NCBI RefSeq assembly: GCF_029633865.1
Contig: NC_079213.1
Location: 86,577,793 to 86,641,792, forward strand
Direction of reading: 5' to 3'
From: Lampris incognitus
Lineage: Eukaryota; Chordata; Actinopteri; Lampriformes; Lampridae
Length of the DNA stretch: 64,000 bases
The translations under genes were made by a program, and so were the position numbers. Below are positions 28,504-50,841 of the stretch, one piece after another. Each line of letters begins with the position of its first letter. The first letter of the stretch is position 1. The notes under the pieces are model-generated. The model was not told the origin of the DNA. It was given only the letters and a program-made list of their open reading frames with translations, and searched no databases.

Positions 28504-28664
28504 AGTAGCAAATTCGGGGGGCAACCACAGGAACTGCCGCGGCCGCGACGCGAGCCTGTATCGCCCGCACCGCAGGAGACATCGCTAACCGCTCGACTAA
28601 AGGGTGAGATCCATCAGGCCCGTCAGCCAGCGGCCAACGTGTCTACTTGTCCATGCACGTTACA
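28504..28664 (-). mobile_element. Solo LTR of the small tRNA-like LTR element
   Basis: Reverse complement of the 157-bp LTRs at 50407-50563 and 50681-50837, more diverged. Read on the minus strand it starts TGTAACGTGCATGGA and keeps the A-box-like TAGTCGAGCGG, while the B-box-like part is degraded (GGCTCGCGTCG). It sits in an AT-repeat that is uninterrupted in the other copy of repeat R. Confidence 0.75.
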
Positions 28665-37989: not shown

Positions 37990-38800
37990 AGAGAGCCTGG
38001 TTTGAGAGCTGGCTGGACATGAGAGAACTGGGCATGACAGAAGAGGGCAGAGTTGGCTGGATATGAGAGAGCTGGGCATGACAGAGGAGGGCTGTGCTGG
38101 CTGAACATAAGAGAGCTGGGCATGCCACTCTGATGGCCGAGCGGAATAACCCGCCATTCTTGCAACCCGCTCGTCATGTGGCTGGGAGGTTCGTGTCCCA
38201 GACTCAACGTAACCGGTCACGGCCAGAGCGTCCACGGGGTAAGGCATTCAATAGGCCACCCTTACCCGAGGGATAGTGGGTGTAGATCGGTGTAGTGTTC
38301 AGGGACTCGTCGATCTCCAGCGACCCCTCTGGCCCATCTGGGCGCCTGCAGCCAAGCAACAGAAAGCATTCTCCCTACGTCTCCTTCGCGGCCTGAAGGT
38401 AATGCAATCCATGCGAGGCTTCAGCGTGTAGAATAGCGAGAGCAGTTGACACGAGTTAGAAGGAAGCTGGTGTTACGACTATCTCCTTCCTGTGGAAACG
38501 TGAGCCAGGGGAGTTATTCGACAAGAGTTCCAGCCATATGACATTGGGTTAATTGGGTGGGATAAGGGGAAAAACTAGAAATAAATTTATAAATAAAAGA
38601 GAGCTGGGCATGACAGAGGAGGGCAGGGCTGGCTGGACATGAGAGAGCTGGGCATGACAGAGGAGGGCTGTGCTGGCTGGACATGAGAAACCTGGGCATG
38701 ACAGAGGAGGGCAGAGCTGGCTGGACATGAGATATCAGGGCATGACAGAGGAGGGCTGTGCTGGCTGGACATCAGAGAGTTTGGTATGAAAGAAGGGCTG
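37990..38800. repeat. 42-bp minisatellite split by a SINE
   Basis: Units close to GAGAGCTGGGCATGACAGAG + GAGGGCTGTGCTGGCTGGACAT (42 bp) occur about three times before 38125 and about five times after 38597. Because 42 is divisible by three, the array is open in several frames and gives false proline/serine-rich proteins. A few related words also appear near 34915-34990. Confidence 0.85.
38125..38596 (+). mobile_element. tRNA-derived SINE (family B) with 16-bp target duplication
   Basis: AAGAGAGCTGGGCATG is present at 38109-38124 and 38597-38612. The head TGATGGCCGAGCGG and GGTTCGTGTCCC near 38190 fit A- and B-box motifs of a tRNA-derived promoter. The tail is AAATTTATAAATAAA. Unrelated to family A at 9.4 kb. 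Confidence 0.85.
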
Positions 38801-39264
38801 ACTTGGACCTTACTGTGCTGCAGAACAAATCCAACATAAACCTTCTTCTTTCTCTCCCTATTCACTTTCCCATCCTGATGCTGTCTCATCTGCTAATGGC
38901 ATCCTTTCTCACTGATGTTTTTCCTTATCATCCTGGTGATCAGTCTTATTTACTACAAAATGCAAAATACAGAAAAATCTCAAATCTCATTAATACAGTA
39001 ATAAAGGAAAGCTAGTCTCAACACACCTATAGGAAAATGTTTTGGTCCTTAAACTTGTTTCAGCACTCATCAAAACTCAGGTAATTGTAGTTATATGCAA
39101 TAACTGCAATGAATAGTCATACTTATCAACAAATACAAAATCTGAATAACATACAAGCAATTATATTAAATCTCAGCTCTCACCTTGTAAATTAATTCTG
39201 TCCTCCTGTTTTTCTTGGTGAAGTGGTCAATCACTGTCATACCAGGAAGGATTTTTTTTCCAAA

Positions 39265-50247: not shown

Positions 50248-50406
50248 TTTGCGTTTGTGCGAATGGTTTAATGGCCCACATCAAAAAGGTAAACCCTAAT
50301 GTTACATGGCACTGCATGATTCACCGCGAAGCATAAGCTAGCAAGAGAATGAGTCCAGAGTTAAACGATGTTTTGAATGATGCCGTAAAAGTGATCAACT
50401 TCATAT
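50248..50406 (+). pseudogene. Middle fragment of the ZBED5-like hAT transposase
   Basis: Reads ICVCANGLMAHIKKVNPNVT then WHCMIHREA, stop, ASKRMSPELNDVLNDAVKVI and NFI. This fits the segment after the second catalytic Asp region in ZBED5-like transposases. The frame is taken up again as SRPLNHRLFQSL at 50842 once the small LTR element is removed. Confidence 0.85.
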
Positions 50407-50837
50407 TGTAACGTGCATGGATAAGAAGACACGCTGGCCGCTGGTTGGCGGGTCCGACCCTTTAGTCGAGCGGTTAGCGATGTCTCCTGCGGTGCGGGCG
50501 ATACGGGTTCGCTTCCCGGCCGCGGCAGTTCCTGTGGTTGCGTTGTCCCCCGAATTCGCTACATTGGTGTCAGAAGTGGGATGGAGCGACCGTAAGGCCA
50601 TCGGAAGCGCATGCGCTCTGAAGCGTGAAGGAGCTGATATGCTTAAGCGCGGGGATACGCTTCCCGAAGGAGGGGGGTAGTGTAATGTGCATGGATAAGA
50701 AGACACGCTGGCCGCTGGCTGGCGGGTCTGACCCTTTAGTCGAGCGGTTAGCGATGTCTCCTGCGGTGCGGGCGATACGGGTTCGCTTCCTGGCCGCGTC
50801 AGTTCCTGTGGTTGCGTTGTCCCCCGAATTCTCTACA
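50407..50837 (+). mobile_element. Miniature LTR element (TRIM-like) with tRNA-like LTRs
   Basis: Two 157-bp direct repeats, 50407-50563 and 50681-50837, start TGTAA and end CTACA and differ at six positions. Between them are 117 bp that begin with a primer-binding site TGGTGTCAGAAGTGGGA (50565-50581), the complement of the 3' end of tRNA-Leu(CAG) including CCA, and end with a purine tract GGAGGGGGG next to the second LTR. The flanks carry ATAT on both sides (50403-50406, 50838-50841), and removing the element joins the hAT coding sequence exactly. There is no room for gag or pol, so it must use proteins of another element. Confidence 0.85.
50463..50516 (+). promoter_or_regulatory. tRNA-like A and B boxes inside the LTR
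   Basis: TAGTCGAGCGG at 50463-50473 fits the A-box consensus TRGYNNARNNG at every position, and GGTTCGCTTCC at 50506-50516 fits the B box at 10 of 11. Spacing is that of a tRNA gene. The same pair occurs in the second LTR at 50737-50747 and 50780-50790. The rest of the segment does not fold into an obvious full tRNA, so it is called a promoter-like relic and not a tRNA gene. Confidence 0.65.
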
Positions 50838-50841
50838 ATAT

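Follow-up and report, generated by a model that had tools for sequence, protein, structure and literature searches.

A probable Helenus-type TRIM with tRNA-derived LTRs in Lampris incognitus and hybrid insertions that point to a Ty3/gypsy helper

Introduction

The TRIMs with tRNA-derived LTRs that occur in fungi, animals and plants were named Helenus by Kojima (2024, PMC10886601), and their hosts include coelacanth, sterlet, paddlefish, zebrafish and other fish (PMC10886601). Most Helenus families are described as carrying the motifs TRGCY and YGG in box A and GGTTC in box B, and the animal elements are reported to have 4-bp duplications and gypsy helpers, the latter deduced from primer-site similarity (PMC10886601). 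The founding paper itself leaves Pol III transcription unproven and states that the way in which TRIMs depend on helpers is not known and that nothing indicates a helper for Cassandra, another TRIM (PMC10886601). In plants, LTR swapping between autonomous and non-autonomous elements is, by its title, the subject of a study in soybean (Du 2010, cited in PMC5668417), and complex elements of Triticeae are attributed to fusion by template switching during reverse transcription (PMC1950507).

Here we analyse a 431-bp element for which an initial annotation had stated that no vertebrate TRIM with a tRNA-type promoter was described. This is wrong in view of the vertebrate Helenus elements (Kojima 2024, PMC10886601). 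The kind of element is known since 2024, and what is new here is the helper evidence from hybrid copies; hybrid-based helper evidence for a Pol III-type TRIM in a vertebrate was not found in the open-access literature searched.

Results

The window, i.e. the whole 64-kb stretch of DNA that was analysed, harbors at 50407-50837 a 431-bp element consisting of two LTRs and a non-coding interior; with fewer than 1000 bp, two LTRs and no coding capacity, it has the size and structure of a Helenus TRIM. The two 157-bp repeats with six differences, the 117-bp interior ending in a purine tract and the ATAT duplication on either side, all proposed in the initial annotation, could be confirmed, and its reading as a miniature LTR element carrying a tRNA-type promoter is supported by this anatomy together with the A and B boxes. 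The features are as follows.

50403..50406, no strand: left target-site duplication ATAT, read from the sequence
50407..50563, + strand: 5' LTR, 157 bp, TGTAACG...TTCGCTACA, by repeat comparison
50463..50473, + strand: A box TAGTCGAGCGG of the 5' LTR, by motif match
50469..50521, + strand: tRNA-Gly(GCC)-like stretch, D arm to T arm, score 43 against a shuffle best of 38 (n = 500)
50506..50516, + strand: B box GGTTCGCTTCC of the 5' LTR, 10 of 11 positions, by motif match
50564..50680, + strand: interior, 117 bp, non-coding
50565..50582, + strand: primer-binding site, 18 nt, complement of the tRNA-Leu(CAG) 3' end with CCA
50666..50677, + strand: polypurine tract GAAGGAGGGGGG, then TAG
50681..50837, + strand: 3' LTR, 157 bp, six substitutions relative to the 5' LTR
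50737..50747, + strand: A box of the 3' LTR
50780..50790, + strand: B box of the 3' LTR
50838..50841, no strand: right target-site duplication ATAT
28505..28664, - strand: older LTR from this family, 84% identity, without interior

The LTRs align without gaps and have TG...CA ends, and the interior runs from a T through the 18-nt primer site to GAAGGAGGGGGG-TAG, so that both the primer site and the purine tract of Helenus are present. If a single ATAT is retained between the flanks, one reading frame spans the site and has a stop codon where the flanks meet. The hAT identity that the initial annotation gave to the restored sequence was not confirmed by Pfam, which named no family on the two flanking pieces whose frames had been called 'hAT'. 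Elsewhere, the window contains an array of 44-bp direct repeats (38005-38835).

The primer site is the exact complement of 18 nt of a tRNA-Leu(CAG) gene plus CCA from the same genome; the tRNA had been named correctly in the initial annotation, at a length of 17 instead of 18 nt. At up to three mismatches the site occurs once in the window, there exact and correctly placed, and 23 of 100 window shuffles contain at least one match at this tolerance. The 22-base 3' end of tRNA-Leu(CAG) has 39 exact matches in the genome. Among 12 of these that were examined, six overlapping loci represent three distinct genes, identified as Leu-CAG by ARAGORN, and at least two (L044 and L045) are not genes but tRNA pieces within retroelements, in which 29 and 35 nt of tRNA-Leu complement including CCA, respectively, adjoin an LTR end. 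These embedded mature tRNA-Leu 3' ends exceed the usual 18 nt, and the LTR ends that they adjoin are inverted. Both scars lend support to priming by tRNA-Leu.

Searching with the A-box consensus TRGYNNANNGG and the B-box consensus GGTTCGANTCC, we found the A box of the window LTR to fit at all positions and its B box at 10 of 11, as initially annotated. When the LTR was dinucleotide-shuffled 2000 times, a single shuffle contained such a pair at a distance of 35-75 bases. The likeness to tRNA was scored against 16 human tRNAs, with 500 dinucleotide shuffles per LTR family. For the family of the window element (family A), the best score of 43, obtained with tRNA-Gly(GCC), was reached by 0 of 500 shuffles (maximum 38 over any of the 16 tRNAs), and the LTR of a second family (B) scored 39 with tRNA-His, again reached by 0 of 500 shuffles (≤33). 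A third family (C), which is close to A, was weak, with six of 500 shuffles attaining its score and no B box within three mismatches in the copy tested. Among 63 full family A LTR copies examined, 57 have an exact A box and 55 both boxes. With regard to the Helenus motifs, family A has TAGTC, whose fourth base departs from TRGCY, together with CGG and GGTTC; family B has TAGCC and CGG without GGTTC, so that TRGCY of box A is found in family B only.

Several further searches were negative. ARAGORN called no tRNA in the window, and Rfam models gave no tRNA or 5S match on the LTR (none up to E = 1). Neither the tRNA-like stretch nor the interior folds better than shuffles, the A and B boxes were not clearly more conserved than the remaining LTR among young copies, and the element's lack of TTTT, considered as a mark of Pol III, is not significant. 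LTR copies truncated at the 5' end, which might have marked the RNA start, begin at scattered positions (41, 61, 58/60 and 91) and are too few. A scan of IMG/VR with the LTR core yielded no match. Judged by its A box, its B box and its similarity from the D to the T arm, the LTR is tRNA-derived, as in Helenus, without containing a recognisable tRNA. From the boxes alone we infer that transcription by Pol III would start within the LTR.

The genome surveyed comprises 1.48 Gb in 537 contigs. An exact 35-base junction of TRIM LTR end, primer site and TRIM interior occurs in it 1,367 times (reversed control: 0), which confirms that the element is not a one-off, and adjacent junction matches 267 bases apart reveal tandem arrays. 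Among the loci examined, 28 distinct full LTRs have no recognised interior alongside, five of which precede a primer site and are thus not solo LTRs; matching 4-bp flanks were found in 17 of the 28. Of six complete LTR-interior-LTR copies examined, four have matching flanks, and their LTR divergence lies between 5 of 150 and 13 of 157 sites. Each of the 21 matching duplications conforms to RTAY (ATAT 11, GTAT 5, ATAC 4, GTAC 1) and has the 4-bp length of animal Helenus elements; most of the loci scored were picked by likeness to the window LTR and hence lean to young copies. Copy ends are flush with the duplications and lack an A-rich tail. On this sequence evidence it can be regarded as shown that TRIM has multiplied and integrated in the manner of LTR elements, duplicating 4 bp of RTAY.

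Family B (L002:1668-2037, L014, L016, L027, L038) measures 370 bp with an LTR of 135 bp and a consensus A box, and differs from family A in its LTR ends, its B-box sequence and its primer site, TTGGTGGCAGCGGTGGGATCC, which presumably fits tRNA-Leu(AAG). Its duplications readable by eye are CTAC, GCAC, ATAT, TAAG and ATCA, i.e. RTAY in one of five, hinting at a different helper. Some individual loci are irregular. L041, considered as a parent element, turned out to be a TRIM interrupted by an apparent LINE 3' end (read by eye). In L017:1204-1393 two TRIM LTRs lie head to head, folding back near LTR position 58-60, at the A box, and another inverted pair (C1:34782467 and 34782636) is known from opposite-strand junction matches only. 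In L006, L015, L026, L007 and L075 the LTR is still preceded by AG or TAG from the side of the purine tract, which looks as though one of the ends had escaped processing.

A candidate helper came into sight at L029, where TRIM interior and 3' LTR follow a foreign 5' LTR with AATAAA. This LTR belongs to a Ty3/gypsy family, here called P, with a 327-bp LTR and 624 LTR candidates in the genome, 40 of which were scored. Elsewhere the P LTR leads into the same 18-nt primer site and then into a gag frame with a zinc knuckle (zf-CCHC, PF00098). A middle piece encodes reverse transcriptase (RVT_1, PF00078) and RNase H (RT_RNaseH, PF17917) in frames that are broken in the copy read, and the 3' half contains integrase domains (PF17921, PF00665, PF22938; Integrase_H2C2, rve). 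By coordinates, two P copies measure about 5.6 kb each. P may be called autonomous insofar as gene content is concerned. Its LTR lacks an A-B box pair and has little in common with the TRIM LTR besides the termini TGTA.CG and TTCGCYACA. The partner gypsy element anticipated in the initial annotation, with the same LTR or primer site, thus exists with respect to the identical primer site but not with respect to the LTR. Two solo P LTRs have the duplications GTAT and ATAT, and further P flanks are mostly RTAY, with the exceptions GTAG (L056, L057, L058) and ACAC (L064); L056 and L057, which have an identical flank, look like a single insertion sampled twice. Among the matches listed, P 3' LTR junctions lie on one strand at intervals of about 140-420 kb on C289, C399, C419, C521 and C22, as if within a very long repeat.

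We then compared P and TRIM by means of four exact 35-base junction patterns (control 0 each), which catch well-kept copies only. Genome-wide there are 1367 TRIM-TRIM, 32 P-P, 20 P-TRIM and 15 TRIM-'P-type' junctions. Fifteen P-TRIM loci were read, namely 14 of the 20 exact junctions and L061, which is off the pattern by one primer-site change, and all 15 consist of a P LTR (or part of it) followed by TRIM interior and TRIM LTR (or part of it). The P LTR is present end to end in 11, and nine of these 11 have identical 4-bp flanks (L054, L060, L061, L081, L082, L083, L086, L088, L090), eight following RTAY and one, L083, reading TTAT. L088 lies within a long AT repeat, which makes its flank match trivial, and L086 precedes an AT repeat. 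At the observed duplication frequencies the chance of a flank match is 0.37, and that of at least nine in 11 is 0.003; excluding the AT-rich sites L086 and L088, the chance of at least seven in nine is 0.016. The nine loci lie in mutually different flanking sequences and are therefore not segmental duplicates. L084 and L089 have an end-to-end P LTR and mismatched flanks, L079, L080 and L085 have a 5'-truncated P LTR without an exact matching duplication, and L087 is a composite in which a TRIM LTR precedes the end of a P LTR, with the flanks GTAC/GCAC. The truncated P LTRs of L079, L080 and L087 begin at P positions 281, 253 and 244, near the AATAAA at 278; they possibly represent minus-strand switches carrying R-U5 only.

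The spacer base after the LTR is C in 16 of 20 P-TRIM junctions and 31 of 32 P-P junctions, compared with four of the first 100 listed of the 1367 TRIM-TRIM junctions (Fisher test, 16/20 vs 4/100: 6.5e-13). Of the 15 TRIM-'P-type' matches 12 were read, and four join a TRIM LTR to P gag (L069, L072, L073, L075); the other eight represent TRIM subfamilies, TRIM point variants and, in L071, other sequence. A P tract-LTR junction follows downstream on the same strand 5.2 kb away in L072, 2.1 kb away in L075 and about 4.5 kb away at C25:3151225, a junction match known by coordinate and one of the three outside the 12 read. For L069 and L073 there is none in that range among the first 100 of 109 matches listed; L069 has no P LTR at the expected distance, its P match stopping after about 0.7 kb, and the reciprocal junction of L073 is preceded by another TRIM interior and purine tract, not by a target site.

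At least two more fusions involve other gypsy sequences. In L010, TRIM is joined to gypsy pol at a 10-nt identity (AAGTGGGATG), with a reverse transcriptase frame whose RVT_1 match is below the curated cut-off, and in L005 a 5' LTR-like end of foreign origin precedes TRIM interior and LTR, after which RNase H (RT_RNaseH) and integrase domains follow. Neither pol sequence gave a nucleotide match to a 2-kb P pol piece.

Discussion

When an LTR element replicates normally, the same strands serve as templates for the two LTRs of a new insertion, and these come out identical. An insertion with a P LTR at its left end and a TRIM LTR at its right end is therefore not heritable by retrotransposition, which means that each hybrid is a separate first-generation event. 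The sole long identity between P and TRIM is the primer site. We propose that Pol III would start within the 5' LTR, a short way ahead of its A box, and read through the 3' LTR, and that P would co-package the TRIM and mobilise it. The plus-strand strong-stop DNA of P, comprising P LTR, spacer base and primer site, would then jump to the TRIM minus strand via the common primer site, which would place a P LTR to the left of TRIM interior and TRIM LTR; a jump in the opposite direction would join a TRIM LTR to P gag. A jump between P and TRIM implies that both nucleic acids are in the same particle, and a strong-stop transfer between molecules predicts a spacer base that follows the LTR donor, as was observed. 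The simplest cause of the hybrids would thus be a jump of P strong-stop DNA to TRIM cDNA within one particle. That the Ty3/gypsy family P, which shares the 18-nt primer site, would supply the machinery of the TRIM is strongly supported, and mobilisation by gypsy, as put forward for Helenus in animals, is here indicated by the hybrid insertions themselves. Taken together, a Helenus-type TRIM with a tRNA-derived unit of A and B boxes in its LTR, moved by P via co-packaging, is very likely the best joint explanation.

The hybrids might alternatively have arisen by unequal recombination of resident P and TRIM copies at the common primer site, which would tell nothing about packaging. Such a crossover would fall within the 18-nt identity, as is the case, no exact duplication matches in six of the 15 hybrids, a further hybrid matches trivially, and a spacer base that follows the LTR donor is equally expected from DNA recombination inside the primer site, so that only the duplications speak against this origin. 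Recombination of two insertions, however, would leave unrelated flanks, whereas the flanks are identical in nine of the 11 hybrids whose P LTR is present end to end, which chance hardly explains even with the RTAY preference or without the two AT-rich sites, and the mutually different flanks argue against duplicated copies of one event. We therefore regard recombination as quite improbable. P could also be a helper among several gypsies without being the principal one, and for us this is only slightly short of an even call. L005 and L010 are fused to pol sequences of other gypsies, and P is therefore probably not the sole helper; the TRIM seems not to be faithful to one. On the other hand, hybrids with P are recurrent, with 20 exact junctions beside 32 from P to P.

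With regard to the promoter, the element could be an ordinary TRIM transcribed by Pol II, whose A and B boxes were left behind by an inserted SINE. The absence of visible constraint on the boxes among young copies and of any tRNA call by ARAGORN or Rfam would fit this view, but both boxes are retained in most full LTR copies (55 of 63), and family B, which differs in its LTR ends and its B-box sequence, still has a consensus A box and tRNA similarity. The TRIM LTR also lacks the AATAAA that P possesses, which has little weight, as 98% of shuffles lack it by chance. On balance, a Pol II TRIM appears unlikely. Two tandem tRNA SINEs, brought to mind by the boxes in each repeat and by the arrays with a spacing of 267, can practically be dismissed: flush ends with 4-bp duplications, the lack of A-rich tails or SINE-like ends in the genome copies, the primer site, the purine tract and single LTRs with duplications rule them out, in line with the argument of the initial annotation.

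Under the preferred reading, i.e. co-packaging by P, hetero-LTR insertions are scars of two elements in one particle. Their counts offer a general route, requiring nothing but sequence, to the helper of a Pol III-type TRIM, and also allow an estimate of how often plus strands are transferred between molecules in nature. Among the 52 exact P 5' LTR junctions, which represent well-kept copies only, 20 lead into TRIM; such a share would be striking beside the second strand transfer that a review on retroviruses describes as intramolecular (PMC5086612). The tRNA-promoter LTR before gypsy gag in the reverse hybrids would imply that P and TRIM keep trading promoters. It seems reasonably likely to us that, jointly, the hybrids pin down the helper of a vertebrate Pol III-type TRIM, which would be new to the literature searched, that plus-strand transfer of P is often intermolecular, and that P and TRIM exchange promoters for different polymerases.

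Compared with known systems, the element has A and B boxes in common with tRNA SINEs but shows LTR-type integration, without a LINE-type tail or variable ends. Like Cassandra it would be a TRIM with a Pol III promoter inside its LTR; in contrast, the Cassandra LTR is derived from 5S rRNA, for which Rfam gave no match here, and Cassandra has no known helper (PMC10886601). The soybean and Triticeae cases resemble ours, by title and abstract, in LTR exchange and element fusion and differ in concerning plants (PMC5668417, PMC1950507). The element resembles Helenus in the tRNA-derived A and B boxes of its LTR, in having both a primer site and a purine tract, and in its 4-bp duplications and proposed gypsy helper; fish hosts, tRNA-Leu among the vertebrate primers and tandem arrays as in zebrafish LTR-11_DR are common to both as well (PMC10886601). 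It is thus a probable new Helenus member, assigned by features rather than by sequence kinship to named families. The difference lies in the helper, which was deduced from primer-site similarity for the animal elements described so far in that paper (PMC10886601), whereas here hybrid insertions would tie the TRIM to one particular gypsy family.
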